Shown one piece after another: positions 43,493 through 64,000 of a stretch of 64,000 nucleotides of DNA. The DNA is from Janthinobacterium sp. 61 (GTDB taxonomy: Bacteria; Pseudomonadota; Gammaproteobacteria; Burkholderiales; Burkholderiaceae_D). The translations under genes and the position numbers were made by a program. Location: assembly GCF_002846335.1 (NCBI RefSeq), contig NZ_PJMQ01000001.1, forward strand, positions 5,332,001 to 5,396,000, given 5' to 3'. The number at the start of each line of letters is the position of its first letter. Position 1 is the first letter of the stretch. Under the pieces are notes generated by a model. The model was given only the letters and a program-made list of their open reading frames with translations, searched no databases and was not told the origin of the DNA.

Positions 43493-43607
43493 TGCCTGAT
43501 GACCATAGCAAGTTGGTCCCACCCCTTCCCATCCCGAACAGGACCGTGAAACAACTTTGCGCCGATGATAGTGCTGCAACCAGTGTGAAAGTAGGTTATC
43601 GTCAGGC
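43493..43607 (+). rRNA. rrf: 5S ribosomal RNA, operon 2
   Basis: 115 bp, identical to the operon 1 5S as far as I can read, with the same 136-bp gap after 23S. Confidence 0.95.
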
Positions 43608-45265: not shown

Positions 45266-46732
45266 ATGTCAGAACCGATCCGCTTTTACTACCGTGGTGC
45301 CGTACAGGAAGTACGTAACGCCGCCCCTACGCAGACTGTGTTGCAGCACCTGCGGGAGGATTTGCATTGCACGGGCACCAAGGAGGGCTGCGCGGAAGGC
45401 GATTGTGGCGCCTGCACCGTCGTCATCGGCAGCCTGGTCGATGGCCAGGTCGAGATGAAGGCCGTCAACGCCTGCATCCAGCTCACCCCTACCCTCGACG
45501 GCAAGGCCCTGTTTTCCGTGGAAGACTTGCAACAGCCCGATGGCGCCTTGCACCCGGTGCAGCAGGCGATGGTCGAGTGCCACGGTTCCCAGTGCGGTTT
45601 TTGTACGCCAGGTTTCGTGATGTCGTTGTGGGGCATGTATCTGCAGAAAAACGGCGAAACCCCCACGCGCTGCGAAATCGACGATACGCTGTCCGGCAAT
45701 TTGTGTCGCTGCACGGGCTACCGGCCGATCATCGATGCGGCCAGGCGCATGGGCGAGTTGCCGCATGTCGCGTTTGACCGCGATGCTCTGGCGCAACAAT
45801 TGCAGGCGCTGCAGCGCGGCAGCCTGAGCACCTATGAACATGGCGGCCAGCACTTCCACGCACCGCGCAGCATCGACGAACTGGTGGCGCTGCGCGCGGA
45901 AAAGCCGCAAGCGTGCCTGCTGGCCGGCTCTACTGACGTGGGCTTGTGGGTCACCAAGCAACTGCGTGACCTCGGTGACATCATTTATCTGGGCAACGTG
46001 GCCGCGTTGAAAACCATCAGCATCGTTGACGGCAAGCTGCACATCGGCGCTGGCGCCAGCCTCAACGATGCCTATGCGGCGCTGTGCCAGCACTATCCAG
46101 ACGAGTTGTCGGAACTGTGGCAGCGCTTTGCCTCTTTGCCGATCCGCAACGCGGGTACTTTGGGCGGCAATGTGGCCAATGGTTCGCCCATCGGTGACTC
46201 GATGCCGTGGCTGATTGCGCTGGGTAGCGATATCGTGCTGCGCGGCCCCGGAGGCCAGCGCGTGATGCCGCTGGAAAACTTCTATCTGGCTTACCAAAAG
46301 AAAGATCTGCAACCTGGCGAATTCGTCGAAGCCGTGCGCGTACCCTTGCCGCGTGCCGATGTGCATTTCCGCACGTATAAACTGGCGAAGCGTTTTGACC
46401 AGGATATTTCGGCCGTGTGCGCCGCGTTTGCCTTCCGTCTGGATGGCGACGTGATCGTCGATGCGCGCATCGCCTTTGGCGGCATGGCGGCCACGCCGCA
46501 ACGGGCAGCGCAAACGGAAGCATTTTTGCTTGGGCAGGCGTGGACGGAGGACAACCTCGTCATCGCCATGCGCTTGCTGGCCGACGATTACGCGCCGCTG
46601 TCGGACATGCGCGCCTCGAATACCTACCGCATGACGACGGCGCAAAACCTGTTGCGCCGCTTCTGGCTGGAAACACGCCCTGGTGCGCCGCTGCTGCGCA
46701 CTGCCGTCAACGCCTACGCTTGCCGCGCCTGA
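45266..46732 (+). CDS. xdhA: Xanthine dehydrogenase small subunit XdhA (2Fe-2S and FAD)
   Basis: 488 residues. XDH oxidises hypoxanthine to xanthine and urate in the cytoplasm. The plant-type 2Fe-2S cluster uses Cys42, 47, 50 and 70 (GCAEGDCGACTV, NAC); the second cluster Cys110, 113, 147 and 149 (CHGSQCGFCTPG, LCRCTGYRP). The FAD domain follows from about 195 (LLAGSTDVGLWVTKQL, NAGTLGGNVANGSPIGDSMP). The frame opens upstream at 45203 but ATG 45266, with GAGG seven bases before, gives the normal start. xdhB follows after 10 bp. Confidence 0.95.
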   Translation: MSEPIRFYYRGAVQEVRNAAPTQTVLQHLREDLHCTGTKEGCAEGDCGACTVVIGSLVDGQVEMKAVNACIQLTPTLDGKALFSVEDLQQPDGALHPVQQAMVECHGSQCGFCTPGFVMSLWGMYLQKNGETPTRCEIDDTLSGNLCRCTGYRPIIDAARRMGELPHVAFDRDALAQQLQALQRGSLSTYEHGGQHFHAPRSIDELVALRAEKPQACLLAGSTDVGLWVTKQLRDLGDIIYLGNVAALKTISIVDGKLHIGAGASLNDAYAALCQHYPDELSELWQRFASLPIRNAGTLGGNVANGSPIGDSMPWLIALGSDIVLRGPGGQRVMPLENFYLAYQKKDLQPGEFVEAVRVPLPRADVHFRTYKLAKRFDQDISAVCAAFAFRLDGDVIVDARIAFGGMAATPQRAAQTEAFLLGQAWTEDNLVIAMRLLADDYAPLSDMRASNTYRMTTAQNLLRRFWLETRPGAPLLRTAVNAYACRA

Positions 46733-46742
46733 AAGGACCAGC

Positions 46743-49088
46743 ATGAACCATCCTGTCACGCCCGAATTGCAAGCGGCCGCCTGGGCCGCCGTGGGCAAGC
46801 CCAGCCCCCATGAATCGGCGCAATTGCATGTGCTGGGGCAAGCCACGTACACGGACGATATCGCCGAATTGCAGGGTACTTTGCACGCGGCGCTGGGCCT
46901 GTCGCAAAAGCCTCATGCGCGCATCACGGCCATGGACTTGTCGGCCGTGCGCAATGCGCAGGGTGTCGTCGCCGTCTACACGGCGCAGGATATTCCCGGC
47001 ACCAATGATTGCGGCCCCATCATCCATGACGACCCCATCCTGGCTTTTGATCTGGTGCAATACGTGGGCCAGCCCATCTTCATCGTCGTGGCCGATACGC
47101 ATGACCATGCGCGCCGCGCCGCCCGTCTGGCGCAAGTGTCGTATGCGGAATTGCCCGCGATCATGACGCCGCAGGCGGCCAAGGCGGCGCAATCGTACGT
47201 GCTGCCGCCGATGCAGCTGACGCGGGGCAACTACCAGGCCGCGTTCGAGAAGGCGCCGCACGTGGTCAAGGGCCAGCTGTATGTGGGCGGCCAGGAACAG
47301 TTTTACCTCGAAGGACAGATTTCCTACGCCATCCCCAAGGAAGCGCAAGGCATGTTGGTGTTGTGTTCGACCCAGCATCCGAGCGAGATGCAGCACGTGG
47401 TAGCGCATGCGCTGGGCGTGCATTCGCATAACATCACCGTCGAATGCCGCCGCATGGGCGGTGGTTTCGGAGGCAAGGAATCGCAATCGGCTCTGTGGGC
47501 GGCGGCGGCATCGATTGCGGCAGCCAAACTGAAGCGCCCCGTGAAGCTGCGTGCCGACCGCGACGACGATATGTTGGTGACGGGCAAGCGCCACTGTTTT
47601 TACTATGAATACGAAGTGGGCTATGACGATGACGGCAACATCCTTGCCGCCAAGGTCGACATGACCACGCGCGCCGGCTACTCGGCGGACTTGTCCGGTC
47701 CCGTCGCCACGCGCGCTGTCTGTCACTTTGATAACACCTATTATTTGTCCGACGTGGATATCCGCGCCGCCTGCGGCAAGACGAATACCCAGTCGAACAC
47801 GGCTTTCCGCGGATTCGGCGGGCCCCAAGGCGCCATCGCCATCGAGTACGTGATCGATGAAATTGCCCGCCATTTGCAACGCGATGCGCTCGATATCCGC
47901 CTGCTCAATTTCTATGGTCGCAATGATGCGGAAGGGCACAACGTCACGCCATACGGGCAGAAAATCGTCGATAACGTGATCCATGAACTCGTTGCCGAAC
48001 TGGAAGACAGCAGCGATTACCGGGCGCGTCGCCGCGCCATCGATGCCTTTAACGAGGCCAGCCCTGTCTTGAAGAAGGGCTTGGCATTCACGCCCCTGAA
48101 ATTCGGCATCGCCTTCAACGTCACGCATCTGAACCAGGCCGGTGCGCTCGTGCACGTGTACGTGGATGGCTCAGTGCTGGTCAACCATGGCGGCACGGAA
48201 ATGGGACAGGGCATCAATACCAAGGTGATGCAGGTGGTGGCGCACGAACTGGGACTGGACCTGGACAGAGTACGTGCCACGGCCACCGACACCAGCAAGG
48301 TGGCGAACACCTCGGCCACGGCAGCGTCCACCGGCGCAGACCTGAACGGCAAGGCGGCGCAGGATGCGGCGCGCCAAATCCGTGAACGCATGGCCGATTA
48401 TGCGGTCAAACTGTATGGCGGCGAGCCAGCTTGCGTGCGCTTCTTCGACAATCACATCCACGTCAACGGCCATGTCGTGCCGTTTGCCGAGCTGGTGCAG
48501 AAGGCTTACCTGGCCAGGGTACAACTGTGGTCGGATGGTTTTTATGCCACGCCCGGCCTGTCGTGGGATGCGAAGACGATGACGGGCCATCCGTTTTCCT
48601 ACTACGCGTATGGCGCGGCCGTGGCCGAAGTGGTGGTCGATACCTTGACGGGCGAATGGAAACTGCTGCGTGCCGACGCCTTGTATGACGCGGGCCAGTC
48701 GCTCAATCCCGCGATTGATCTGGGTCAGGTGGAAGGTGCATTTATCCAGGGCATGGGCTGGTTGACCACGGAGCAGCTGTGGTGGAATGCGGCGGGCAAG
48801 CTGATGACGCACGCGCCATCGACATACAAGATTCCCGGCATTTCGGATTGTCCGGAAGATTTCCGGGTGAAACTGTTCCAGAACCGCAACGTGGAAGACA
48901 GCATCCACCGTTCCAAAGCCGTGGGCGAGCCGCCGCTGCTGTTGCCGTTTTCCGTGTTCTTTGCCATCCGCGACGCCATTTCCAGCGTGGGAAATCACGC
49001 CGTGCAGCCGCCGCTGAATGCACCGGCCACCAGCGAGGAAATCCTCAAGGCAATCATGGCCGTACAAGCGGTTTGCGCCAAGGTATAG
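46743..49088 (+). CDS. xdhB: Xanthine dehydrogenase large subunit XdhB (molybdopterin)
   Basis: 781 residues, binding the molybdenum cofactor and purine. LHVLGQATYTDDI starts the a/b-hammerhead domain, ECRRMGGGFGGKESQ and NTAFRGFGGPQGAIAIEYVI are Moco-binding motifs, and RSKAVGEPPLLLPFSVFFAI near the C-terminus contains the catalytic Glu of GEPP. It lies between xdhA and xdhC with 10- and 6-bp gaps. ATG 46743 follows AAAGGA. Confidence 0.95.
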   Translation: MNHPVTPELQAAAWAAVGKPSPHESAQLHVLGQATYTDDIAELQGTLHAALGLSQKPHARITAMDLSAVRNAQGVVAVYTAQDIPGTNDCGPIIHDDPILAFDLVQYVGQPIFIVVADTHDHARRAARLAQVSYAELPAIMTPQAAKAAQSYVLPPMQLTRGNYQAAFEKAPHVVKGQLYVGGQEQFYLEGQISYAIPKEAQGMLVLCSTQHPSEMQHVVAHALGVHSHNITVECRRMGGGFGGKESQSALWAAAASIAAAKLKRPVKLRADRDDDMLVTGKRHCFYYEYEVGYDDDGNILAAKVDMTTRAGYSADLSGPVATRAVCHFDNTYYLSDVDIRAACGKTNTQSNTAFRGFGGPQGAIAIEYVIDEIARHLQRDALDIRLLNFYGRNDAEGHNVTPYGQKIVDNVIHELVAELEDSSDYRARRRAIDAFNEASPVLKKGLAFTPLKFGIAFNVTHLNQAGALVHVYVDGSVLVNHGGTEMGQGINTKVMQVVAHELGLDLDRVRATATDTSKVANTSATAASTGADLNGKAAQDAARQIRERMADYAVKLYGGEPACVRFFDNHIHVNGHVVPFAELVQKAYLARVQLWSDGFYATPGLSWDAKTMTGHPFSYYAYGAAVAEVVVDTLTGEWKLLRADALYDAGQSLNPAIDLGQVEGAFIQGMGWLTTEQLWWNAAGKLMTHAPSTYKIPGISDCPEDFRVKLFQNRNVEDSIHRSKAVGEPPLLLPFSVFFAIRDAISSVGNHAVQPPLNAPATSEEILKAIMAVQAVCAKV

Positions 49089-49094
49089 GAACAG

Positions 49095-50177
49095 ATGATG
49101 AACGACTGGTTGACGGCAATCGAGAACGACACGCAGGCATCTGTGCTGGTGACGGTGGCCCTGGTGGAAGGCTCGGGTCCGCGCGAAGCGGGGGCGAAGA
49201 TGCGCGTCACCCTCGATGGCCAGGTCGATACCATCGGTGGCGGCCACCTGGAATTGCGTGCAGTAGAAATCGCCAAGACCATGCTGACCACGGGAGACAC
49301 CCATGCGCGGCTCGAGCGTTTCGCGCTGGGCCCCAGCCTGGGCCAATGCTGCGGCGGCGTCGTGCACCTGGCATTTGAGCATGTCGACGCCAGCCTGACA
49401 GCGTTGCTGGCCGCCTTGCGCGAGCGCCGTCAGCAGGATAGTTGGCGCCTGACGGCGCTCGATGGCGACACCGCCGCCGCCCTGTTCGATGCGGCGGGCG
49501 CGCTGATCGCCGGTGTGCCGGCACAGGCGCCGGACACGTTTTCGCGCGAACGCAGTACCCATGTTGCGCAGGATGGCACGGGGCGGCGCTGGCTGGTCGA
49601 CCCTTGCCGGGCACCGCGCGCGCACCTGACCTTGTTCGGCGCCGGCCACGTGGGCACCGCCATCGTGCGCGCGCTGGCCCACTTGCCCTGCAATATCACC
49701 TGGGTTGACGAGCGCGAAGACATGTTTCCCGCGGCGTTGCCTGCGGGTTTGCCAGCGAATGTGCGCATCGCCGCCACCGATATGCCGGAGGAATTTGTTG
49801 CGATGGCGCCGCCGGGCGGCAGTTTTCTTGTCATGACACATAGTCATGCGCTCGATCAGCGCCTGACGCAAGCCATCATGGAGCGCGAGGATGCGGGCTG
49901 GTTCGGCTTGATCGGCTCGCAAACGAAACGCAAGCAGTTCGAGCACCGTCTGCAGGCGCGCGGCGTGCCGGATGAGCGCATTGCCGCCATGGTGTGCCCG
50001 ATCGGCATGCCAGGCATCCGCAACAAGGCCCCGGCCGTGATCGCCGCCTCCGTGGCCTGTCAATTATTGATGGTGTGGGAAGAGGCCGCCAGCGCGGCCC
50101 TGGCCGCACCGCTGCGGCTGGCTAATGCCAGCACGCCACTGCGCCGCCCAACCCGCGCCGCCATTCACCCCTTATAG
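49095..50177 (+). CDS. xdhC: Xanthine dehydrogenase accessory protein XdhC
   Basis: 360 residues. XdhC binds the molybdenum cofactor, protects it during sulfuration and inserts it into XdhB. N-terminal domain: VTVALVEGSGPREAGAKMRV, DTIGGGHLELRAVEIAK and SLGQCCGGVV with the paired Cys; C-terminal Rossmann domain: HLTLFGAGHVGTAIVRAL and GLIGSQTKRKQFEHRLQARG. It is 6 bp after xdhB and 9 bp before guaD, so xdhABC-guaD is one operon. Confidence 0.93.
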   Translation: MMNDWLTAIENDTQASVLVTVALVEGSGPREAGAKMRVTLDGQVDTIGGGHLELRAVEIAKTMLTTGDTHARLERFALGPSLGQCCGGVVHLAFEHVDASLTALLAALRERRQQDSWRLTALDGDTAAALFDAAGALIAGVPAQAPDTFSRERSTHVAQDGTGRRWLVDPCRAPRAHLTLFGAGHVGTAIVRALAHLPCNITWVDEREDMFPAALPAGLPANVRIAATDMPEEFVAMAPPGGSFLVMTHSHALDQRLTQAIMEREDAGWFGLIGSQTKRKQFEHRLQARGVPDERIAAMVCPIGMPGIRNKAPAVIAASVACQLLMVWEEAASAALAAPLRLANASTPLRRPTRAAIHPL

Positions 50178-50186: not shown

Positions 50187-51503
50187 ATGCCGATTGTTCC
50201 TGCCACATTGCAAGCTTACCGTGCCAGCTTGCTGCACTTCCACGCCGATCCCGCTGTCAACGAGGAGGCGCACGCCTGGCATGCGGATGGCTTGCTGATC
50301 GTGGCTGATGGCAAGGTCGTGGCAGCGGGCGATTACGCGCAACTGCTGGCCACCTTGCCACCCGGCACGCCTGTCGTCGATTACCGGGGCAAGCTGATCG
50401 TGCCCGGCTTTATCGACACGCATTTGCATTTCCCGCAGACGGAAATGATCGCCTCGCCCGCGCCCGGTTTGCTGCCGTGGCTGGAAACGTACACCTTCCC
50501 CACCGAACGCGCATTTGAAGACCCTGTCCATGCGCGCGATGTGGCCGAGTTTTTCCTCGATGAACTGCTGCGCTGCGGCACCACGACGGCCATGGTGTAT
50601 GGCAGCGTGCATCCGCAATCGGTCGATGCCTTCTTTGGCGCCAGCGAGGCGCGCGGCTTGCGCATGGTGGCGGGCAAAGTCATGATGGACCGCAATTGTC
50701 CTGAATTCCTGCGCGACACGGCCGAGTCCGGCGCGCGTGAAAGCGAGGAACTGATCCGGCGCTGGCACAAGCATGGCCGCTCGCTATATGCGATCACACC
50801 CCGTTTCGTACCCACCTCGACGAACGAACAGATGCACCTGGCGGGCGAGCTGGCGCGCGCCTATCCGGATACGTATCTGCAAACCCACGTGTCGGAGAAC
50901 GAGGATGAGTGCCGCTGGGTGCGCGAACTGCATCCGCAGGCGCGCAGCTACCTCGATGTGTATGACCAGTACGGCATGCTACGCCCGCGCGCCATGTTCG
51001 GCCATTGCATCTGGCTCGATGAGCGCGACCGCGCGCGCATGGCGGAAACGTCCTCGGCGGCCGCCATTTGTCCCACATCCAACCTGTTCCTGGGCAGCGG
51101 CCTGTTCGATTTCGAGCGGGCCGATGCGGCGAGAGTGCTGCTGTCGCTGGCCACCGACGTGGGCGGCGGCACCTCGTTCTCGATGTTGCAAACCATGAAC
51201 GAAGCCTATAAAGTAGCACGCTTGAAAGGCAGCTATCTGCCCGCCTTGCGCATGTTTTACCTGGCAACCCTGGGCGCAGCACGGGCCATGCAACTGGAAG
51301 GCATCCTGGGCAATTTCGCGGCTGGCACGGAAGCGGATTTTATCGTGCTCGACAAGCAATCGACGCCGCTGCTGGCTCGCCGCACGGCCGGCTGTCAAAG
51401 CCTGGAGGAATTGCTGTTTGCCTTTGCGCTGCTGGGCGACGACCGGGCCGTGGCTGCCACCTATTCAGGCGGGCAATGCGTGCATGTGCGGGGGCAGGGC
51501 TGA
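50187..51503 (+). CDS. guaD: Guanine deaminase
   Basis: 438-residue amidohydrolase converting guanine to xanthine, the substrate of the adjacent XDH. Zinc ligands are visible as FIDTHLHFPQTEM (His79, His81), HVSENEDEC, MFGHCIWLDE and the late Asp in LATDVGGGTSFSML; TYTFPTERAFED and CPTSNLFLGSGLFD are guanine deaminase signatures. Cytoplasmic. AGAAAGAAG lies just before the ATG. Confidence 0.94.
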   Translation: MPIVPATLQAYRASLLHFHADPAVNEEAHAWHADGLLIVADGKVVAAGDYAQLLATLPPGTPVVDYRGKLIVPGFIDTHLHFPQTEMIASPAPGLLPWLETYTFPTERAFEDPVHARDVAEFFLDELLRCGTTTAMVYGSVHPQSVDAFFGASEARGLRMVAGKVMMDRNCPEFLRDTAESGARESEELIRRWHKHGRSLYAITPRFVPTSTNEQMHLAGELARAYPDTYLQTHVSENEDECRWVRELHPQARSYLDVYDQYGMLRPRAMFGHCIWLDERDRARMAETSSAAAICPTSNLFLGSGLFDFERADAARVLLSLATDVGGGTSFSMLQTMNEAYKVARLKGSYLPALRMFYLATLGAARAMQLEGILGNFAAGTEADFIVLDKQSTPLLARRTAGCQSLEELLFAFALLGDDRAVAATYSGGQCVHVRGQG

Positions 51504-51546
51504 CCTACCCGTTGTTCCATACGAATTATCCTGAGCGAGAACGCGA

Positions 51547-53049
51547 ATGCACAAGAAACTCACTGGCCTGGCGCTTGGCGCCGCGCTGGCATTGACCGGA
51601 CCGGCGCAAGCAGCCAAAGCAGTGGCCGCCCCAACTTCCAACGAAGCTGCCACCGCGCGCCATTTTGCCGCCTTGGTTGCGGGTACGCAGCCTAAGACGG
51701 CCGAGTTGAGCCTGTTCTTTTCCATGATGCCCAAGGGCGGGGACTTGCATCACCATTACTCAGGCGCCATTTACGCCGAGCAATTCCTCGACTGGGTCGA
51801 CAAGGAGAATTACTGCGTCAACAAGACGACCTACCGCATCGAAAGCAACAGGGACGTCGTGGCGGCCGAGCGCGCCAAGCCGGCCGCGCAGCGTGGCTGC
51901 CTGTCGTCCACGGAAGTGTTTGCCGATGCGGGCCTGTATGCGGAATTGCTGCAGCGCTGGTCAACCAAGGATTTCTACAACCACGGCGCCATCCAGACGC
52001 CGCCGGACCGCACTTTTTTTGATACCTTTGGCTATTTCGGCCCCGTGGCGTCGAGCAACACGGCGGATGGCCTGAAAACCCTGAAGCAGCGCGCCATCGC
52101 GGAAAACCTCAGCTACATCGAGACGATTTTCGAGCTGTCGCCCTTCGTGCAGAACGCGCAGTTCGACCAGCAAGTGCTGGCGCCGGGCTTGCAGCCGGCA
52201 GCGTTGCAAGCCGTGCTGGCCAACTGGACGCAGAGCCTGGAGCAGGACGCCAGCTTCCAGAAAAGTATCACCGCCTACAACGATAACGTCAACGCCAGCA
52301 GCGCCGGCATCGACGATGCGAATTTCACCATGCGTTACCAGGCGTATGTGCTGCGTTTCCTGTCGCCATCGCAAGTTTTTTCCTCGATGGTGGCTGCGTT
52401 CAAGGCAGCGAGCCTGAATCCGCTGCTGGTGGGCGTGAACATCGTGGGCCAGGAAAGCGTGAACGTGTCCATGCGCGATTACAGCCTGCACATGGAAATG
52501 TTCAAGTTCCTCAAGGCAAAGTATCCGAACGTCAAGATCGCCCTGCATGCCGGCGAGCTGGCGCTGGGCATGGTGCCGCCGGAAGGCATGGCCTTCCATA
52601 TCGCCGAAGCCGTCGATGTGGCGGGCGCCGACCGTATCGGCCACGGCATGGATATCGCCTACGAGCACAATGCGCTGGCCACCATGCAGAAGATGCGCGA
52701 GCGGGGCATTCCCGTGGAAGTGAATCTGACCAGCAACGATTACATTCTCGGTATCAAGGGCCAGGCCCATCCGATCACCCTGTACCGCAAGTATGGCGTG
52801 CCATTCGTCATCTCCACTGATGATGCGGGCGTTTCGCGCAATACCCTGTCGAATGAATATGTGCTGTTTGCCAGCCAGTACAAGACCGATTATGCGGAAA
52901 TCAAAAAGCTATCCTATAACAGCCTGCGGTATTCCTTCCTGGCGGAAGCGGACAAACAACGTTTGCTGAAAGCACTCGATGCCCGTTTCACCCGTTTTGA
53001 AGCGGACATTGCCGCAGCCGACAAGGCAGGCAAGAGCAACAAACCGTAA
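51547..53049 (+). CDS. Exported adenosine deaminase-like protein
   Basis: 500 residues with a signal peptide (MHKKLTGLALGAALALTGPA, cleavage near AQA, residue 22), so periplasmic or secreted, unlike the cytosolic Add. The amidohydrolase zinc site is GGDLHHHYSGAIYAEQ (His68-70), IALHAGELALGM, DRIGHGMDIAYE and VISTDDAGVSR. It should convert adenosine or deoxyadenosine to inosine outside the cytoplasm, upstream of the XDH route. It is 120 residues longer at the N-terminal half than Add and resembles the ADGF-like family. It starts 43 bp after guaD and ends in a terminator. Confidence 0.9.
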   Translation: MHKKLTGLALGAALALTGPAQAAKAVAAPTSNEAATARHFAALVAGTQPKTAELSLFFSMMPKGGDLHHHYSGAIYAEQFLDWVDKENYCVNKTTYRIESNRDVVAAERAKPAAQRGCLSSTEVFADAGLYAELLQRWSTKDFYNHGAIQTPPDRTFFDTFGYFGPVASSNTADGLKTLKQRAIAENLSYIETIFELSPFVQNAQFDQQVLAPGLQPAALQAVLANWTQSLEQDASFQKSITAYNDNVNASSAGIDDANFTMRYQAYVLRFLSPSQVFSSMVAAFKAASLNPLLVGVNIVGQESVNVSMRDYSLHMEMFKFLKAKYPNVKIALHAGELALGMVPPEGMAFHIAEAVDVAGADRIGHGMDIAYEHNALATMQKMRERGIPVEVNLTSNDYILGIKGQAHPITLYRKYGVPFVISTDDAGVSRNTLSNEYVLFASQYKTDYAEIKKLSYNSLRYSFLAEADKQRLLKALDARFTRFEADIAAADKAGKSNKP

Positions 53050-53082
53050 GTTGCGCGACGTTCACGACTGACACTATCAAGG

Positions 53083-53106
53083 CGGCCGGATCTTCCGGCC
53101 GTTTTT
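53083..53106 (+). terminator. Terminator after the adenosine deaminase gene
   Basis: CGGCCGGA / TCCGGCCG arms with loop TCT, followed by five T; 34 bp after the stop. It closes the xdhABC-guaD-ada block. Confidence 0.88.
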
Positions 53107-53841
53107 CATTTTCCCCCTCAAACCTTCGCGATGCTATTTTGCCAATTTTGTGGCAGCCATGCGACACAATTCGCACCAGATGCACGACTTTATACAATTT
53201 CCTGGATGAATCAATTTCAAGTACATATTGCTCATTTATAATCTCGCGCCATAAGCCCGGACGCTGCCAGCACGATATCAATCCAGCTAGTTACTCATGC
53301 TATTTATACTTTAAACATATAAATATGTAAAAAAAAACGTATTTGTCATCCATTTTTTGATGATGCATAGTGGGATGAGGGTGATATTAAAAAGTCACAA
53401 TTTACTTTGGCGATATCGTATGAAGATGGGTATTTGCAGTAAATAAAGGTGAGATGCAGAGTGAAACACACAGTCGCGCAGCTAGATGACGACATTCTTC
53501 TGTATTTTGCCACCGTGTCACAGTCTTGAAATATTTAACAATTACACTCGCGGCTTGCCATGTTAGCCGGGTAAGGCTGTCGGGTGAATGACACAGGTGC
53601 TAGCGCCCTGGGTCGTACGGATCGGTTGCAGTTTTTTCCGCCGTTTTTGTCTGGATAGGAATAGTTGTGATGTGTGGAGTGGCGTTTTGTGATGGTCTTA
53701 TCAGGACCGCAGCCAGTCCCGCCGGCGTAACAGTTGCAGCATCGTAAAGAGGAGATCTTGAGTTTGTGTTGCTGTGCGGCGCAGCCGGACGGTGGGGCAA
53801 TCCAGGATTTTCAAAAATAATAGTCTTTTCTGGGGTTAAAG
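53107..53841. other. Long AT-rich intergenic region before the TonB-dependent receptor
   Basis: 735 bp without a convincing gene, clearly richer in A/T than its surroundings. TTTCAA-16-TATAAT at 53215-53242 is a possible plus-strand promoter, and ACATAT-AA-ATATGT (about 53313-53326) is a small palindrome followed by an A-run. Short open frames here have no ribosome site or recognisable sequence. It may be a long regulated leader, or hold a small RNA. Confidence 0.4.
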
Positions 53842-56800
53842 ATGATCAATCACAAACGACTTCGGCTAACGCAAATCGCGTTCAGCCTGTCTATTGCACT
53901 GGCGGCGGTACCATCGTTCGCACAGAACACTACCTCGGCCATCAGCGGACGTATCTCGTCCAATGACGGCAAGCCTGCAGCTGGCGCCCAGGTCAATATC
54001 GTTCACGTTGAATCTGGCTCCGTCAGCAACGTGACCACCGATGCCGAAGGCCGCTATGTTGCACGTGGCTTGCGCGCAGGCGGTCCTTACACGATCACCA
54101 TTACCAAGAATGGCGAAGTGGAAAAACGCGAAGGCGTCTTCATCCAGCTGGCTGAAACGGCCAGCGTCGATGCGACCCTGGGCGCGCAGATGCAAGTGGT
54201 GAATGTCAGCACGAACGCCATCCGCAATCAGGTGTTTAACCGCAACAACATGGGCGCCGGCACCAATATCAGCCCGACCGAACTGGCTACCCAGGCATCG
54301 ATCTCGCGCAGCCTGCAAGACTATGCCCGCGCCGACCCACGCCTGTCGCAAACAGACAAGGAACGCGGTGAAATTTCCGTCGCTGGCCAGAACTCGCGCT
54401 ACAACTCAATGACGATTGACGGCGTGGCCGTGAACGACACCTTCGGCCTGGAAGCGTCCGGCACAGCAACGGGCAAGCAACCGATCTCGATCGAAGCGAT
54501 CCAGTCGGTGCAAGTGAACGTCGCCAACTATGACGTGACGCAAAAAGGCTACACGGGCGCCAACATCAATGCCGTGACCAAGTCCGGTACCAACAAGGTC
54601 AAGGGCAGCGTGTATTACGTCTTCCGTAATGACACCACGTCCGGCGACCGTTACAACAGCACCGACGACACCTACAGCGCGCCACCGAAATCGAAGGACA
54701 CCACCAAGGGCATCACCCTGGGCGGCCCGCTGATCGAAGACAAACTGTTCTTGTTTGCTAACTACGAAGAAACCAAGAGCTCGCGCGGCGCCCCTTCCTT
54801 CGGTCCGATCGGCAGCGCGCAGACTAACGTTGCTATTACGCAATCGGCTATCGATGGCGCCGTCACCATCGCCAAAGACAAGTACGGTCTCGATATCGGC
54901 ACCTCGGCTGTGCCTAGTGGTTCGGAATTCACGGCCAAGGAAAAGCTGCTGAAACTGGACTGGAACTTGACCGACACCCAGCGCATGATGGTGCGTTATG
55001 CCAAGACCGAACAATCCGAGCCAATCTACACGGGTTTCTCGGCGACTGGCCTGTCGCTGAGCTCGTACTGGTACGCGCAAGAGAAAAGCCTGGAGACTCT
55101 GGTTGGCCAGTGGACGGCCGAGTGGACGCCAACGTTCTCGACCGAAGTAAAGGTGTCGTCGCGCAAATATGACAGCGTGCCAAAAAACAATGCCTTCCTG
55201 CCGGCCATGGGCTTGCAGTTCACGGGCGCGCTGCCAGCCGGAGCGCCGGCTGGCCTGGCTACCGGTAGCCGCTTCCTGAACTTTGGTACGGAACAGAGCC
55301 GCCAGAAAAACGTATTGGGCACCAAGACCAAAGATTTCTACGCAGCCGGTACCTGGGCGCTGGGCGATCATGAAGTCAAGTTTGGTACCGATTACAGCAA
55401 GAATGACGTTTATAACGCGTTCCTGCAAAACGTCAACGGTAACTACACCTTCGGTTGTATCAACAGCAGCGCAACTGTGGCCTATTCGTTTGGCGCGATC
55501 AATTGCGGTACCGCCACTGCGGCGCAACTGCAAGCCGCCGTACTGGAAAACTTCAGCCGCGGCCGTCCAAGCTCGTACTCCTATCAGGTGGCGCAGCCTG
55601 GCCGCACGCTGAACGATGCCATTGCGACGTTCTCGCTGAAAAACATCGGCCTGTTCCTGCAAGATAGCTGGGATGTCAGCAAGCAACTGACGGTCATGGC
55701 CGGTTTGCGCATCGATGGCACACGCATCGGTGAAAAACCGCTCTACAATGCATTGGCTGCCCAGCCAACGGTGGCACGTACGACGCCAACCGGTCGTCAA
55801 ACGGGCGGTTTCGGCATCGACAATTCGCACACCATCGATGGCGAGAACCTGTACCAGCCACGCGTTGGCTTCAACTACAAGCTCGATTCGGCACGTCCGA
55901 CGCAGTTCCGCGGCGGCTTCGGCCTGTTCCAAGGTGCGGCAGCCAGCGTATGGCTGGGTAATCCTTACCAAAATACCGGTCTGGTCACCCAAAACATCAC
56001 TTGCACCTCCTCGGCTGGCACCTGCCCGACAACCGATGGGTTCTTCAACCCGGATCCAACCAAGCAGCCTAGCAACCTGAGCGCTGTTGTTCCAGCCATG
56101 AAGGTCGATGCCCTTAGCACGGACTTGGCGCAGCCATCCGTATGGAAGGCCAACCTGGCGTTCGAACATGAGTTGCCATGGATGGGTCTGATTTTTGGCG
56201 CTGAATACCTGCGCCTGCAAACCAAAAACTCGATTTACTATGAAGAGTTGAATCTGGGTGCGCCAACGGCTTTCGGTAGTGATGGCCGTCCAATGTACTA
56301 TGGCCCGAACGCCTACAAAACCTCGTGCTGGAATGCGACGGGCGGTCTGATCGGTGGTGCGAATTGCAGCGCGTTGACAAAAGCCGGCAGCAATGCCGCC
56401 TTCGGCCAGGTGCTGATCGCCAAGAACACCGATAAAGGTGAATCGAACGTGATGACCCTGTCCTTGCGCAGCCCGCTGCGTGAAGGCCTGTCGTGGGGTA
56501 CGTCGTACACGTACAGCGATGCCACAGAAGTGTCGCCGCTGACGTCGTCGACCTCGAGCTCGAACTGGGGCGGCCGTGCCGTCTTCAATCCGAACGAGAA
56601 TGTCGCGTCGAACTCGAACTACATGGTCAAGGACCGCTTCACGGCCAACGTCAACTGGCAAAAACGCTTCTTCGGCGAATACAAGACCACGTTTGGTCTG
56701 TTCTATGAAGGCCGTAGCGGCAAGCCATACAGCTGGACCATCAACAATGACTTGAACGGTGACGGTCTGGCCGGCAATGACTTGATGTACATTCCTAGCG

Positions 56801-57252
56801 CGCCAGGTTCGGGTGACGTCGTGTTTGCCGGCGCCACGCCAGCGGCACGTGCTGCCAACGAAGCGGCGTTCTGGAAAGTGGTCAACGCCAATGGCGACCT
56901 GCGTAAAGCCAAGGGCGGCGTGATTGGCCGTAACGAAAGCTTTGCACCATGGACCAACAGCTTCGACGTGCGTTTGAGCCAGGAAGTTCCCGGCTTCTTC
57001 AAGGGTAACAAGGGTATCTTCACCTTCGACATCCTGAACGTCGGTAACATGATCAACCGTAAATGGGGCCGTATCAATGAAGTGGCCTTTCAATCGGCTG
57101 GTGGTCAGGTACGCAGCTTCGTCGACTACGTCGGTATGGAAAACGGCAAGTATGTCTACAACACCCGTCCTGTCGTAGAGGGCCTGGAAACGCGTCAAGC
57201 CAAAGGCGAATCGCAATGGGCGCTGCAAGCAACGGTCAAGTACGAATTCTAA
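53842..57252 (+). CDS. Oar-type TonB-dependent receptor with carboxypeptidase-regulatory domain
   Basis: 1,136-residue outer-membrane receptor. Signal peptide about 1-27 (LSIALAAVPSFA). Residues about 32-110 form a carboxypeptidase-regulatory-like beta domain (SAISGRISSNDGKPAAGAQV), then the plug (SRSLQDYARADPRLSQTDKE, YNSMTIDGVAVNDTFGLEAS, NVANYDVTQKGYTGANINAV) and a very large barrel ending LQATVKYEF with a terminal Phe. Oar-like receptors take up large or oligomeric substrates. Neighbours suggest nucleosides, nucleotides or DNA fragments, but that is inference. It has its own terminator and a weak ribosome site. Confidence 0.9.
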   Translation: MINHKRLRLTQIAFSLSIALAAVPSFAQNTTSAISGRISSNDGKPAAGAQVNIVHVESGSVSNVTTDAEGRYVARGLRAGGPYTITITKNGEVEKREGVFIQLAETASVDATLGAQMQVVNVSTNAIRNQVFNRNNMGAGTNISPTELATQASISRSLQDYARADPRLSQTDKERGEISVAGQNSRYNSMTIDGVAVNDTFGLEASGTATGKQPISIEAIQSVQVNVANYDVTQKGYTGANINAVTKSGTNKVKGSVYYVFRNDTTSGDRYNSTDDTYSAPPKSKDTTKGITLGGPLIEDKLFLFANYEETKSSRGAPSFGPIGSAQTNVAITQSAIDGAVTIAKDKYGLDIGTSAVPSGSEFTAKEKLLKLDWNLTDTQRMMVRYAKTEQSEPIYTGFSATGLSLSSYWYAQEKSLETLVGQWTAEWTPTFSTEVKVSSRKYDSVPKNNAFLPAMGLQFTGALPAGAPAGLATGSRFLNFGTEQSRQKNVLGTKTKDFYAAGTWALGDHEVKFGTDYSKNDVYNAFLQNVNGNYTFGCINSSATVAYSFGAINCGTATAAQLQAAVLENFSRGRPSSYSYQVAQPGRTLNDAIATFSLKNIGLFLQDSWDVSKQLTVMAGLRIDGTRIGEKPLYNALAAQPTVARTTPTGRQTGGFGIDNSHTIDGENLYQPRVGFNYKLDSARPTQFRGGFGLFQGAAASVWLGNPYQNTGLVTQNITCTSSAGTCPTTDGFFNPDPTKQPSNLSAVVPAMKVDALSTDLAQPSVWKANLAFEHELPWMGLIFGAEYLRLQTKNSIYYEELNLGAPTAFGSDGRPMYYGPNAYKTSCWNATGGLIGGANCSALTKAGSNAAFGQVLIAKNTDKGESNVMTLSLRSPLREGLSWGTSYTYSDATEVSPLTSSTSSSNWGGRAVFNPNENVASNSNYMVKDRFTANVNWQKRFFGEYKTTFGLFYEGRSGKPYSWTINNDLNGDGLAGNDLMYIPSAPGSGDVVFAGATPAARAANEAAFWKVVNANGDLRKAKGGVIGRNESFAPWTNSFDVRLSQEVPGFFKGNKGIFTFDILNVGNMINRKWGRINEVAFQSAGGQVRSFVDYVGMENGKYVYNTRPVVEGLETRQAKGESQWALQATVKYEF

Positions 57253-57287
57253 TTTCGTCCTTGCCTCGTAGCTCGGCAAAGTAAAAA

Positions 57288-57317
57288 ACGGCTGGTGGCG
57301 ACACCAGCCGTTTTTTT
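57288..57317 (+). terminator. Terminator of the TonB-dependent receptor gene
   Basis: ACGGCTGGTG / CACCAGCCGT arms with loop GCGA and a T-run (57311-57317), 36 bp after the stop. Confidence 0.93.
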
Positions 57318-57363
57318 ATACACAAGATGGTTTACTCTTCCCCTTTTCAATAAATATCATTCC

Positions 57364-59061
57364 ATGGCTCACTTCCTACGCACTCCGGTCGCTGCCGCGG
57401 CCCTGATCCTGATCCTGTCCGCCTGCAGCAACCTGGCGCCTGCACCCAGCGGCCCGATTGAAGTGAATCTGGTTGCCCTGAACGATTTTCACGGCAACCT
57501 CGACCGCAGCAAATTCACCTACACGAGCGCTGCCGATGCGGAGCGCAAGACGGTGCAGGCCGGCGGCATCGATACCTTGTCCGGCGCCCTGACGGCGTGG
57601 CGCCGCGAAGACGCGCAGCTGATTTTTGTCGGCAATGGCGACCTGGTCGGCGCCAGCCCCGCCATGTCGGCGCTGTGGGCGGACGAACCGAGCATCGTGG
57701 CCATGAATATGCTGGGCATGAAGGCCAGCTCGGTCGGCAACCATGAATTTGACCAAGGCAAGGCGGAGCTGCTGCGCCAGCAGCGCGGCGGCTGCGAGTC
57801 GTCGCGCGCCGACAAGGCCTGCAAGTTCACGCCCGACTTCAAGGGCGCCAGCTATACCTATATGGCGGCCAATGTCATCGATACGCAAACGGGCAAGTCC
57901 CTGCTGCCAGCCTACCGCATCGAAGAGGCCCATGGCGTCAAGGTGGGCTTGATAGGCGCCGTGCTGAAAGATACGCCGTCCGTGGTGACGGCCGCCGGCA
58001 TTGCCGGTTTGCAGTTTGGCGATGAAGCGGACGCCATCAACGCCACCTTGCCGCAGTTGCGCGCGCAGGGCGTAGGCGTGTTCGTCGTGCTGCTGCATCA
58101 GGGCGGCGAGACGAAGGAAGCCGTCGATCAGCCCGATTGCAGCCACTTGAAGGGCGCAGTGGTCGACGTGGTGAAACGCCTCGACCCGGCGATCCAGCTG
58201 GTCGTCAGCGGCCATTCGCACCAGGGTTATCTGTGCCGTGTCGATGGCCGCCTAGTGACGCAGGCACAGATGGGCGGGCATATGTTGACGCGCATCAAAC
58301 TCAAGGTCGATCCCCTCAAGAACGCGCTGATCAATGCCAGCGCGCAAAACGTTGTCATGCTGCCGGGCATGTATGAGCCGGACCCGGCCGTGGCAGCTTA
58401 CCTGGAATCGGTGAAGCAGCGCAGCGCGGCCGAGTTGTCGCGCCCCGTCGCCGCCATCGCCGTGCCCACCGTGGGCCGCAGCACCAAGGGCAGCGGCGCT
58501 TCCGCGCTGGGCGACCTGGTGGCCGACAGCACCCTGTTCGGCGCGCGCGCTGCCGGCGCACAAATCGGTCTGATGAACAATGGCGGCATCCGCAAGGATC
58601 TGGAAGCGGGCGCCGATCTGATGACGAACGTGGGCCAGAACCAGGCGGTTGTCCCGTTCGGTAATACCCTGATCGTGGTCAGCCTGTCCGGCGCACAAAT
58701 CCGTACCTTGCTCGAGCAGCAATGGCCGGGTGCCGAAGCGGAAGACAACAACTTGCTGCAAGTGTCCGAAGGTTTCAGCTATCGCTGGGACAGTACACGT
58801 CCCCAGGGCCAGCGCGTGCTGCCGGGCAGCATCATGCTCAATGGCGTGGCTATTGATGACAATCAACAATACCGTGTCGCCGCCAATAGTTTCCTCGCTG
58901 GCGGCGGCGACCGTTTCACCGTGCTGGCGGCCGGCACCCGCCGCCTCGACACGGGCGTGCGCGATATCGACGCCTTCAGCGATTACCTGATTGCCCGCGC
59001 GCGCGCCGGCAAGCCCGCTGGCAGCGCCACGGCAGCCGGCCGCATCGTGCGCGTCAAATAA
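57364..59061 (+). CDS. 5'-nucleotidase / 2',3'-cyclic phosphodiesterase family lipoprotein
   Basis: 565 residues with a lipoprotein signal (lipobox LSAC, Cys21). The metallophosphoesterase domain has VALNDFHGN (Asp41, His43), VGNGDLVGAS, SVGNHEFDQG and VVSGHSHQGY; the C-terminal 5'-nucleotidase domain has LMNNGGIRKDLEAG and FGNTLIVVSLSGAQ. It removes phosphate from nucleotides at the cell envelope (UshA-like), supplying nucleosides to the exported adenosine deaminase. ATG 57364 was chosen over the open frame from 57295, which overlaps the terminator. Confidence 0.92.
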   Translation: MAHFLRTPVAAAALILILSACSNLAPAPSGPIEVNLVALNDFHGNLDRSKFTYTSAADAERKTVQAGGIDTLSGALTAWRREDAQLIFVGNGDLVGASPAMSALWADEPSIVAMNMLGMKASSVGNHEFDQGKAELLRQQRGGCESSRADKACKFTPDFKGASYTYMAANVIDTQTGKSLLPAYRIEEAHGVKVGLIGAVLKDTPSVVTAAGIAGLQFGDEADAINATLPQLRAQGVGVFVVLLHQGGETKEAVDQPDCSHLKGAVVDVVKRLDPAIQLVVSGHSHQGYLCRVDGRLVTQAQMGGHMLTRIKLKVDPLKNALINASAQNVVMLPGMYEPDPAVAAYLESVKQRSAAELSRPVAAIAVPTVGRSTKGSGASALGDLVADSTLFGARAAGAQIGLMNNGGIRKDLEAGADLMTNVGQNQAVVPFGNTLIVVSLSGAQIRTLLEQQWPGAEAEDNNLLQVSEGFSYRWDSTRPQGQRVLPGSIMLNGVAIDDNQQYRVAANSFLAGGGDRFTVLAAGTRRLDTGVRDIDAFSDYLIARARAGKPAGSATAAGRIVRVK

Positions 59062-59078
59062 CATTTCAAGGAATAACC

Positions 59079-60308
59079 ATGCGTCGCTTATTTGTTTCCG
59101 TACTTCTCTCCAGCCTGTTCGCAGGCACGGCCCACGCCGAATTCAGCATTCCCGGCTTTGAGCTGGTGCATACCTCGCCCGTGGAAACCACCTTGACGAA
59201 TCCCGACTTGCGCGAACCTGTCGCCGTGTGGACTGAGCTGTTCGATGCGGCAAAAAAAGAGATCGTTATCGCCCAGTTCTATGCCGTCAGCAAGCCGGGC
59301 ACGGCCTTTGAAAAGGTGCTGGCCAGTTTGACGGCCGCCGGCCAGCGCGGCGTGAAAATCCGCTTCCTGCTGGACCAGAAAGGCGTGGGCTTGTCGGACG
59401 CGGCGACCATCGCCCGTATCAAGGCGATGCCCAACCTGGACTTGCGCCTCATCGATTTCAATAAAATCACGGGCAATGGCATCGTGCACGCGAAATATCT
59501 GGCCGTCGATGGCCAGGTCGCCTATATCGGCAGCCAGAACTTCGACTGGCGCTCGTTCGAGCACATTCATGAAACGGGCTTGAAGATCACGGAGCCTGCC
59601 ATGGTCAGCCAGGTGCAAGCCATCTTCGAGCAAGATTGGCAAGCCCAGGCGTTGACGTCGCAGGGCGGCCGCGCCACGGTGCTCAACAGCAAGGTGGTAC
59701 CGGCCAATTACGCGCAGAACGCTTTCCTGCTGGCCAGTCCGAATGCGTACAACCCGGCTGGCGTGGGCGACTCGGAAACGGGCTTGCCTGCCTTGCTGGC
59801 CGAAGCGAAAAGCGAAGTGCGCATTCAGCTGCTCGACTATGCGCCCTTGTCGTATGGCCCGAACCGCACGCGTCCATACTACGCCGTGATTGACAACGCC
59901 GTGCGCGCAGCTGCCCAGCGTGGCGTGAAGATCAAGCTGATGGTGTCAAGCTGGAATACGGAAGCGCCGGCCATCGCCTACCTGAAAAGCCTGGCCCTGC
60001 TGCCGAACGTGGAAATCCGCATCGTGACGATTCCTACGGCTTCGACAGGGTTCATTCCGTTTGCGCGCGTGATCCACAGCAAGACCATGAGCATCGATGG
60101 CAAGCTGGCCTGGGTCGGCACGAGCAACTGGGCGGGAGGCTATTTCGACTTGTCGCGCAACCTGGAAGTGGTACTGCGCAATGATGCCATGGCGCAGCGG
60201 ATTGCCGCGCTGCATGAACAGACGTGGAGCTCGGCGTATGCGCAGCCCATCGACATCAACAAGCAGTACCCGAAACCGGCCAAGGCAGCGCCGCAAGGCA
60301 AGGAGTAA
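59079..60308 (+). CDS. Exported phospholipase D-fold protein (two HKD motifs)
   Basis: 409 residues; signal peptide 1-20 (VLLSSLFAGTAHA). Two complete HxKx4D motifs: His137, Lys139, Asp144 (HAKYLAVDGQVAYIGSQNFD) and His333, Lys335, Asp340 (HSKTMSIDGKLAWVGTSNW). This fold covers phospholipases, cardiolipin synthases and endonucleases such as Nuc. Export and position between a 5'-nucleotidase and an S1/P1 nuclease suggest a periplasmic nuclease or phosphodiesterase, not a cardiolipin synthase; the substrate is not proven. AAGGAA precedes the ATG. The next gene starts at its stop codon. Confidence 0.88.
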   Translation: MRRLFVSVLLSSLFAGTAHAEFSIPGFELVHTSPVETTLTNPDLREPVAVWTELFDAAKKEIVIAQFYAVSKPGTAFEKVLASLTAAGQRGVKIRFLLDQKGVGLSDAATIARIKAMPNLDLRLIDFNKITGNGIVHAKYLAVDGQVAYIGSQNFDWRSFEHIHETGLKITEPAMVSQVQAIFEQDWQAQALTSQGGRATVLNSKVVPANYAQNAFLLASPNAYNPAGVGDSETGLPALLAEAKSEVRIQLLDYAPLSYGPNRTRPYYAVIDNAVRAAAQRGVKIKLMVSSWNTEAPAIAYLKSLALLPNVEIRIVTIPTASTGFIPFARVIHSKTMSIDGKLAWVGTSNWAGGYFDLSRNLEVVLRNDAMAQRIAALHEQTWSSAYAQPIDINKQYPKPAKAAPQGKE

Positions 60309-61390
60309 TGGTGAGAAAATCGATGAAGAAGTTAGTTTGCTTGCTGGCGCTGGGCGCCGCTTTTGCTTCCGGCAACGCACTGGCCTGGGGCAACGACGGC
60401 CACCGCGCCGTGGGCGCCATCGCCGACCAATTGCTCAAGGGCAGCGCCGCCCAGGTTCAGATGGCCAAGTTGCTGCTGCCGGGTGAAAGTCTGGAAAAGA
60501 TCGCCAACTGGCCCGACTGCGTGAAGGGTACGTATTGCGGCCCGCAATCGCCCGAAATGCTGACCTATGTCGCGGCAAACCCCAAGCATGGCCAATACCA
60601 TTACACGAACGTGCCATTCCAGAACGAGCACTACCATGACCATGGCGTGGGCACGGCTGACGACGATATCGTGCAAACGCTCAAGCAGGCTATCCTGGTA
60701 TTGCAGGGCAAGGCTGATGCCGCCAGCAATCCGCATGGCTTCAGCCAGCGCGAGGCGCTGATCCTGATCACGCACCTGGTGGGCGATATCCACCAGCCAT
60801 TACATGTTGGCAATGCGTTTCTCGGCAAGGATGGCCAGTTTTTCGTGCCGGCCACGCAGGCACAGATCGACGACGTCGTCATTTTCAATGCGCGCGGCGG
60901 TAACGACTTGCTGCTCGACGATGCGAAGATGACGGCGCTGTCGGACGCCGTGATTCCCGCGCCGCCGCCGGTGGAAGAAGGCATGGCGAAAGCTCCCGCC
61001 TATCCGAAGTCGCCCACCAAGCCCCTGCATTCGTACTGGGATACGACCGTGGTCGATTACGCCATGCGCCGCCTGAGCACGCGCACGCCGCAGCAGTTTG
61101 CGCGTACGGTGATTGCCAGCCAGCCACAAGTGAGCGGCAATACTGGCGACCCTGCCACCTGGCCGTATCAGTGGGCTGATGCCTCGCTGGCGGCATCAAA
61201 AATTGCTTTCACGGACGTGGTAGCCGGTCCGGCCACGCAGCAGACCAGCCGCAAGGGCGAGGTGTATAAGGTGTGGGCCTTGACGGTGCCGGACAATTAC
61301 CCCGTGCCCAGCTCGGCGCTGGCGAAGCAGCAACTGATCGAGGCGGGCTATCATCTGGCTGCCCTGTTGCAGGTGATTTGGCCACAATAA
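60308..61390 (+). CDS. Exported S1/P1 nuclease
   Basis: 360 residues. After a signal peptide ending ASGNALA, mature protein starts WGNDGHRAVGAIA: the N-terminal Trp and nearby His are zinc ligands in this family. ITHLVGDIHQPLHVGNAFLG supplies the His and Asp of the trinuclear zinc centre, and LHSYWDTTVV a further ligand. It cleaves single-stranded DNA and RNA to 5'-mononucleotides, which the upstream 5'-nucleotidase can use. Start is uncertain among ATG 60308, GTG 60311 (best spaced from AAGGAG) and ATG 60323. Confidence 0.92.
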   Translation: MVRKSMKKLVCLLALGAAFASGNALAWGNDGHRAVGAIADQLLKGSAAQVQMAKLLLPGESLEKIANWPDCVKGTYCGPQSPEMLTYVAANPKHGQYHYTNVPFQNEHYHDHGVGTADDDIVQTLKQAILVLQGKADAASNPHGFSQREALILITHLVGDIHQPLHVGNAFLGKDGQFFVPATQAQIDDVVIFNARGGNDLLLDDAKMTALSDAVIPAPPPVEEGMAKAPAYPKSPTKPLHSYWDTTVVDYAMRRLSTRTPQQFARTVIASQPQVSGNTGDPATWPYQWADASLAASKIAFTDVVAGPATQQTSRKGEVYKVWALTVPDNYPVPSSALAKQQLIEAGYHLAALLQVIWPQ

Positions 61391-63315: not shown

Positions 63316-64000
63316 TTAGCGAGATTTTACAAAGGGGATGCCAATAGCTTTTGGCGCGATGGATTTCGCCATCAAGCCCGCCAGCACGATCACCGTGACC
63401 ACGTAAGGCACCATCTGGATCAGCGAGCCGGGGATGCGGCCCACGACTGGTAAATCCACGCCTTCGATCTGGATCTGGATGGCCGCGAAGAAGCCGAACA
63501 TCAAACAGCCGAGGAAAGTGTAGACAGGGCGCCAGTTGCCGAACACCATGGCCGTCAGGGCCAGGTAGCCGGCGCCGGCCGACATGTCGCGCAGGAAGAA
63601 GCCGCTTTGCACGATGGCCAGATAGGCGCCCGAGAACGAGCACAGAACGCCTGCCACCAGCATCGCCATGTAGCGCGTTGCTTCGACGCTCACACCAGCG
63701 GAGTCGGCCGCATGCGGGTTTTCGCCGCAGGCACGCAGGCGCAGGCCGAAGCGCGTGTGGTACAGCAGCCAGTGCACGAGCGGTATCAGCAGGAACGCCA
63801 CGTAGACGAGGATGGAATGGCCGCCGATCAGGTGGGCATACACCCAGCCGATGAAGGGAATGTGTTCCACATACTGCGTGCCTGGCAAGACCACGTCGAA
63901 CAAGCGCGCCGAACCGAGGTCGGGCGTACGGCCGCCTTGCTGGAAGAAAAATTGCGCCAGCACAAACGTCAGGCCGCTCATGGCAATGTTAATCGCCATG
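63316..64000 (-). CDS. ABC transporter permease, nucleoside / simple-sugar type (partial)
   Basis: The frame is open to the end of the window, so the N-terminus is missing; 228 residues are seen. Hydrophobic helices with RFGLRLRACGENPHAADSAG (cytoplasmic coupling loop), LAIVQSGFFLRDMSAGAGYL and ALTAMVFGNWRPVYTFLGCL are those of the BPD_transp_2 permeases of the BmpA-linked YufQ/NupQ group, which import nucleosides. GENP-HAADSAG is the typical motif. The substrate is inferred from family and from the purine genes nearby. Confidence 0.86.
   Translation of the reverse strand, partial: MAINIAMSGLTFVLAQFFFQQGGRTPDLGSARLFDVVLPGTQYVEHIPFIGWVYAHLIGGHSILVYVAFLLIPLVHWLLYHTRFGLRLRACGENPHAADSAGVSVEATRYMAMLVAGVLCSFSGAYLAIVQSGFFLRDMSAGAGYLALTAMVFGNWRPVYTFLGCLMFGFFAAIQIQIEGVDLPVVGRIPGSLIQMVPYVVTVIVLAGLMAKSIAPKAIGIPFVKSR

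Follow-up and report, generated by a model that had tools for sequence, protein, structure and literature searches.

The systems closest in kind to the one considered here are the phosphate-induced TonB/SusCD loci of Flavobacterium. As set out in the available part of PMC8115612, these PUS loci are induced by phosphate depletion, nucleic acids are named as a likely target, and the transporters are phylogenetically distinct between strains. During growth on DNA, Pseudomonas aeruginosa increases its TonB receptors linked to iron and sulfate, according to the accessible portion of PMC6555301. No paper describing the present locus was recognised in a search of the open-access literature. The locus lies in a 64,000-nucleotide stretch of contig NZ_PJMQ01000001.1 (hereafter 'the window'), assigned to Janthinobacterium via its named relatives, in which an original prediction had placed a nucleic-acid scavenging system leading into purine catabolism at 50187..61390. 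All the genes it named were found there by profile searches and the reading of open reading frames (ORFs): an exported S1/P1 nuclease, an exported protein of the phospholipase D (PLD) fold, a lipoprotein 5'-nucleotidase, an exported adenosine-deaminase-family protein and an Oar-type TonB-dependent receptor, next to guanine deaminase and xanthine dehydrogenase. We consider it likely that these genes form a locus with which Oxalobacteraceae scavenge nucleic acids and nucleotides, working as proposed. It appears to allow this soil and water bacterium to break down external nucleic acids as a source of phosphate, nitrogen and carbon. The pairing of such a receptor with exported nucleases had been thought an unfamiliar layout; receptors grouped with phosphodiesterases and phosphatases had in fact already been reported in Flavobacterium, again in the available part of PMC8115612.

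On the forward strand, the genes run in the order PuuE-like, xdhA, xdhB, xdhC, guaD, deaminase, Oar-type receptor, 5'-nucleotidase, PLD and S1/P1, followed by a DeoR-type regulator on the reverse strand, a NudK protein with a C-terminal extension, and a permease, again on the reverse strand. The conservation of this arrangement was surveyed in 195 genomes of the family, sampled from a larger group, with presence counted at fixed search thresholds; the counts derive from translated searches, and simple ORF calling missed S1/P1 or PLD genes lying under longer antisense ORFs. The nucleotidase was found in 100 of these genomes, the deaminase and S1/P1 nuclease in 64 each, PLD in 55 and the Oar-type receptor in 45. 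Every one of the 45 receptor-bearing genomes also has the deaminase, nucleotidase and S1/P1 genes, with PLD present in 31. Linkage is tight: the receptor is directly followed by the nucleotidase in 44 of the 45 (the exception being G155, where they are approximately 5.2 kb apart), and across the 195 genomes adjacency was observed for nucleotidase and PLD in 41 of 43 cases, PLD and S1/P1 in 32 of 34, and nucleotidase and S1/P1 in 57 of 64.

A second survey considered 80 named receptor loci, the best 80 of 234 matching loci, from Janthinobacterium, Duganella, Pseudoduganella, Rugamonas, Massilia, Telluria, Undibacterium and other genera. Downstream of the receptor, these contain the nucleotidase in 76 cases, S1/P1 in 73, the permease in 55 and PLD in 50; upstream are found the deaminase (74), guaD (72), xdhC (68), xdhB (67), xdhA (65) and the PuuE-like gene (60). 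Misses in these loci are upper bounds, because some loci reach contig ends and the flanks end at 10 kb, and related strains do not represent independent events in any of these counts. In several relatives, the cassette is situated about 8 kb from the start of the contig, and in the window a ribosomal RNA operon (38374-43607) lies directly upstream of the purine genes. The DeoR and NudK genes, which the original prediction had listed along with the permease, were rejected as members of the set, being present in only 27 and 25 of the 80 loci respectively, and are loosely linked; the permease belongs to a Bmp-type importer. The C-terminal 124 residues of the NudK fusion (62887-63261) have no Pfam match and no convincing match among solved structures in the PDB.

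The same unit is therefore conserved in several genera of the family, which removes the earlier concern that the gene order might be unique to this strain. Nor is the order itself fixed. Genomes G132 and G165 have the order receptor, nucleotidase, S1/P1, deaminase, and in G132 (L068) an ATP-binding cassette (ABC) importer, a nucleoside hydrolase and a 2OG-Fe(II) oxygenase lie directly upstream of the TonB receptor row, the importer permease being 73% identical to that of the window. Undibacterium seohonense (L158) has permease, Oar-type receptor, nucleotidase, S1/P1 and deaminase consecutively. These rearranged orders in other genera favour function over inertia. The oxygenase is found beside importer and deaminase genes in genus g32 (L068 4823-5698, L074 8664-9509), and might act on purines. 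A search of 369 genomes belonging to the class recovered such an S1/P1 gene from just two, the window's own and one from another family (L203); hence the locus is, as far as the sample shows, a family speciality.

The receptor itself occupies a swappable slot, filled by one of two unrelated TonB-receptor families, which is new here. The Oar-type receptor recognised by the original prediction is present in the window, but represents only one of the two kinds found across relatives. It has an N-terminal carboxypeptidase-regulatory-like domain (PF13620, 58.3 bits against a cut-off of 32.3) and a beta-barrel scoring above cut-off with PF25183 and PF00593; the plug model PF07715, at 20.8 bits, falls just under its cut-off of 23.9, and the plug region is poorly predicted in the structure model. 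This model is of low confidence (mean pLDDT 66.4, pTM 0.58), and all 50 fold matches listed are TonB-dependent receptors. The fold was dropped as a clue to the ligand, the model being too weak and the matches saying only that the protein is a TonB receptor. In the loci examined that lack the Oar-type protein, another TonB receptor of about 800 residues occupies the slot. The 11 members compared share 56-68% identity across genera g1, g4, g11, g18, g32 and g19, and around 40% with members from g28, g14 and g26, and at E 1e-3 blastp matches none of the 11 to the Oar-type protein. In the PDB the second receptor has a single match, to a TonB-dependent receptor, along part of its length. There are 68 nucleotidase matches with S1/P1 or PLD behind them; in front of 45 of these stands an Oar-type receptor and in front of 20 one of the second family, leaving three unassigned, two of which are in genomes where the nucleotidase match is split. 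At the thresholds used, only G133 has both families. The second-family receptor precedes the nucleotidase in 29 of 46 genomes, PLD in 11 and neither in six. No match to this family was found for either the L067 insert, which lies between receptor and nucleotidase, or the extra gene of L060. An ExbB-type gene between the TonB receptor and the nucleotidase in G117 (genus g28; L075 8986-9639) is a possible dedicated energiser.

Within Janthinobacterium, the receptor gene is a mosaic of diverged alleles or the unrelated TonB receptor (L033, L034, L087-L101). When aligned to the window in 400-base windows, the flanks of UMAB-56, PAMC25724, GW458P, TND4EL3 and SUN073 are mostly 84-96% identical, as against 64-85% in the receptor, save for single windows near its ends, and in G109 and G123 the receptor region is unalignable. 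FT58W has flanks of 71-89% and a receptor of 79-87%, and BJB426 and GW456P are 78-96% identical throughout. We infer from these patterns that the receptor gene is exchanged in one piece; more than once, it seems, a diverged allele or an unrelated TonB receptor has taken its place, whilst the enzymes stayed.

The gap between the receptor and nucleotidase genes contains a terminator-like hairpin in 74 of 75 loci, compared to between none and four in five rounds of shuffled gaps, with a core common to 60 of the 75 across several genera. Co-transcription of the receptor with the enzymes is doubtful because of this terminator, and the receptor is probably transcribed on its own; the hairpin perhaps sets the ratio of receptor to enzyme. 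The suggestion that the receptor is bounded by terminators on both sides holds only in part: the deaminase match has a terminator-like hairpin behind it in 34 of 74 named loci (one to three in shuffles), the window being among those that have one. A consensus scan of the entire region gave 11 promoter-like sites, relative to 5.0 (standard deviation 2.6) in shuffles, and 14 terminator-like sites, no excess over the shuffle mean of 15.6. A rival reading is that there is no functional unit, but simply neighbours kept together by inherited synteny. That the loci are found almost wholly in one bacterial family, that the receptor has its own terminator, and that the xdh genes and guaD accompany these loci on the upstream side through the same inheritance would all fit with synteny alone. 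Yet DeoR and NudK come and go while the set persists, the same genes are found in a rearranged order in another genus, and a second, unrelated receptor has come to lie in the same slot, so we regard this explanation as very improbable.

Upstream of the receptor, 30 triple sites of TGTCA direct repeats, spaced at 11 bp, are found in 16 of 81 loci, these being the 80 named loci and the window. No triple array at this spacing was found elsewhere in the same loci (about 1.8 Mb, a length taken from computed rates), and the other spacings from 7 to 16 gave a single match, at 16. An 18-base Pho box scored at least 14 in 22 instances across all 81 loci, relative to one in shuffles. When the pattern was searched for genome-wide, allowing up to two mismatches, 42 matches (some overlapping) were obtained in five genomes, compared to one for the reversed pattern, and in four of the five the array precedes the receptor. 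Thirty loci with such matches were inspected and the genes downstream of nine sites profile-scanned; their best matches were to exopolyphosphatase (one), OlsB (two, in two genomes), PafA (one), NRAMP (one) and MFS (two), with two genes unmatched. Exopolyphosphatase, OlsB and the alkaline phosphatase PafA are known kinds of PhoB target. Of 12 upstream regions of second-family receptors that were scored, three reach at least 13 out of 15, two from Janthinobacterium strains (13) and one from a g4 genome (14). Control of the receptor by PhoB is thus supported, on the strength of these motifs, for part of the family. Because the receptor has a PhoB-like promoter in these relatives, phosphate starvation is a likely trigger in that group, and phosphate itself is probably one of the main gains from the locus. 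In the window's strain, PhoB control may be presumed by descent: the promoter retains one TGTCA, one TGAAA and a -10-like TACACT, as the counterpart of its relatives' array. The idea that the window contains an 18-base Pho box in full was dropped, the best score of 12/18 being the commonest value in shuffled controls, and the window's best triple score, 11/15, falls outside the promoter element.

Signal peptides, the nucleotidase lipobox, the metal-site and catalytic motifs of the deaminase and the HKD motifs of PLD were all read by eye. The S1/P1 protein matches PF02265 with 98.8 bits against a cut-off of 29.5, as well as S1/P1 nucleases in the PDB, and in ten sequences H31, D69, H97, H155, D159, H165, H240 and D244, which we take to be zinc ligands of such enzymes, are invariant, with W26 nearly so. 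The closest solved structures to the nucleotidase are bacterial nucleotidases (3ivd, E 8.7e-39; 2z1a, E 3.2e-36), followed by CD73; its start is probably the ATG at 57364, giving a lipobox of LSAC by eye, rather than the GTG of the ORF at 57295. The deaminase has human ADA2/CECR1 as its best solved match (3lgd, E 1.2e-12), chiefly over residues 292-490. The nearest solved relative of PLD is SpPLD of Serratia plymuthica (PDB 7e0m, E 5.4e-153, residues 19-401 of 409). Next come PLD3 and PLD4 of humans, which carry the annotation 5'-3' exonuclease (the best, PLD3 8v05, having E 3.1e-34 over residues 51-394), to which, by this sequence match, the protein is related.

These assignments allow for another function, in which the locus scavenges organic phosphorus in general, with a true phospholipase D, a receptor for some other phosphate ester, and nucleic acids as one of several substrates. 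In its favour, some relatives have PhoB-like arrays in the promoter of the receptor gene, the nearest solved relative of PLD is named a phospholipase, and similar Flavobacterium loci are predicted to serve several kinds of phosphodiester (available part of PMC8115612). However, the S1/P1 nuclease and adenosine-deaminase-family protein, in 73 and 74 of the 80 loci respectively, and their position beside guanine deaminase, point to nucleic acids. Furthermore, PLD matches PLD3 and PLD4 too, and the authors of the SpPLD structure, in the accessible part of PMC8004604, raise the question of nucleic-acid hydrolysis and note nuclease-like features. We therefore judge a general organic-phosphorus role to be unlikely, though deserving of consideration. 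The least probable of the alternatives is that the locus serves the turnover of extracellular DNA, whether that of biofilms or that released by lysed neighbours, any nutritional gain being incidental: an exported Shewanella nuclease is described as turning over extracellular DNA in biofilms (available text of PMC3409153), but this would leave the linked nucleotidase, deaminase, importer, purine-catabolic genes and TonB receptor unexplained.

The locus forms part of a longer region devoted to nucleoside uptake and purine degradation. Beyond the window lie the rest of the Bmp-type ABC importer, comprising a PF02608 binding protein, an ATPase and a second permease, together with a LysR regulator, a xanthosine/purine nucleoside phosphorylase and a phosphopentomutase, the last two above cut-off; further on are a pyrimidine nucleoside phosphorylase and a cytidine deaminase. 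A urate oxidase gene (PF06181) at 5430324 of the same chromosome is 37 kb from the S1/P1 gene. Because of this, urate need not be where catabolism ends; it had been foreseen as a product and is probably not the endpoint. The original prediction of a path from scavenging into purine catabolism is partly supported: the set is conserved and lies within this longer region, though the receptor is probably transcribed separately.

In the scavenging scheme we favour, the TonB-dependent receptor would import nucleic-acid fragments or nucleotides across the outer membrane, unless cutting occurs at the surface. In the periplasm or at the cell surface, S1/P1 would then cut single strands, and could remove 3'-phosphates, the PLD3/PLD4-like enzyme would trim ends, and the lipoprotein 5'-nucleotidase would free phosphate from 5'-nucleotides; the activities assigned to these three enzymes rest on knowledge of their families. 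The exported ADA2-like enzyme may convert adenosine to inosine. Phosphate would pass to the cell's own phosphate uptake, and the Bmp-type importer would bring in nucleosides, to be degraded by the nucleoside phosphorylases, guanine deaminase and xanthine dehydrogenase, and subsequently by urate oxidase and PuuE. A more specific proposal, that the two interchangeable receptors use TonB to import oligonucleotides or DNA fragments as food, supplying a periplasmic line that includes the PLD3/PLD4 relative, and that the receptor alone is exchanged, perhaps because it serves phages or toxins as a door, is tentative and on balance doubtful.

Several points weigh against the scavenging scheme. Nucleic-acid fragments or nucleotides are a putative cargo of the receptor. 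The conserved terminator behind the receptor weakens any single-operon reading. The full PhoB-like array is absent from 65 of the 81 receptor promoters; the window's own array score is not above chance in its 64 kb, the genome-wide search gave no match before the receptor in the window's own genome, and all the matched genes downstream of the pattern score below NCBIfam cut-offs. The deaminase and nucleotidase are named by superfamily only, because both miss curated equivalog cut-offs, with 87.6 against 216.55 bits for the ADA model TIGR01430 and 128.3 against 600 bits for the UshA model NF007109. No PLD was found in 30 of the 80 named loci, and SpPLD was published as a phospholipase D, its authors leaving the choice of substrate open in the accessible part of PMC8004604. 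Finally, the conservation could largely reflect shared descent within one family. The positions of the features are listed in the table.

Table. Features of the scavenging locus and its surroundings, in window coordinates.
Feature	Position	Strand	Basis or remark
Polysaccharide-deacetylase-fold protein, read as allantoinase PuuE	44213..45166	+	PF01522 above cut-off
Xanthine dehydrogenase, xdhA and xdhB	45266..49088	+	ORFs, named from reading the sequence
xdhC, xanthine dehydrogenase accessory protein	49095..50177	+	TIGR02964 above cut-off
Guanine deaminase, guaD	50187..51503	+	NF006679 and TIGR02967 above cut-off
Exported adenosine-deaminase-family protein	51547..53049	+	PF00962 above cut-off
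Terminator-like hairpin after deaminase gene	53079..53105	+	12 pairs
Receptor promoter element GTGTCAC-N5-TGAAATATT ... TACACT	53515..53548	+	Counterpart of relatives' PhoB-like array
Oar-type TonB-dependent outer-membrane receptor, swappable slot	53842..57252	+	PF25183, PF13620 and PF00593 above cut-off
Intrinsic terminator, receptor/nucleotidase gap	57286..57317	+	Terminator-like hairpin in 74/75 loci
Lipoprotein 5'-nucleotidase, UshA/CD73 superfamily	57364..59061	+	PF02872 and PF00149 above cut-off
Exported two-HKD PLD protein	59079..60308	+	PF13091, PF00614 and PF13918 above cut-off
Exported S1/P1 nuclease	60311..61390	+	PF02265 above cut-off
Permease of Bmp-type ABC importer reaching beyond the window	63316..64000	-	PF02653

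If the scheme is correct, it would represent a TonB-driven nucleic-acid food route for Gram negative bacteria outside the Bacteroidetes, and name candidate receptors for nucleic-acid cargo. It would also place bacterial relatives of PLD3 and PLD4 in a setting that allows a genetic test of their natural substrate, and constitute a clear case of receptor exchange within a nutrient locus that is otherwise stable.

Three of the exported enzymes have sequence relatives in humans, namely lysosomal PLD3 and PLD4, secreted ADA2, and the ecto-5'-nucleotidase CD73. In animals these are separate genes with immune and lysosomal roles, and the likeness concerns parts rather than a system. SpPLD (PDB 7e0m; accessible part of PMC8004604) is likewise compared as a protein only, being the nearest solved relative of PLD. 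As systems, the loci of Candidatus Izemoplasma and the nucleotidases of Shewanella from marine sediment resemble the present one in that exported nucleases and nucleotidases feed nucleoside uptake and catabolism (available part of PMC8289736). A TonB receptor is unmentioned in that part of the account of these sediment DNA degraders, whereas one is present here. The Flavobacterium PUS loci, with a TonB-dependent transporter gene clustered with phosphodiesterases and phosphatases (available part of PMC8115612), share the receptor. They belong to another phylum and differ in their SusD-like partner, which was found neither among the ten window proteins scanned nor in the neighbours of relatives, scanned in part. 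Unlike them, the present locus has dedicated S1/P1, PLD and adenosine-deaminase-family enzymes, and is embedded in purine catabolism.

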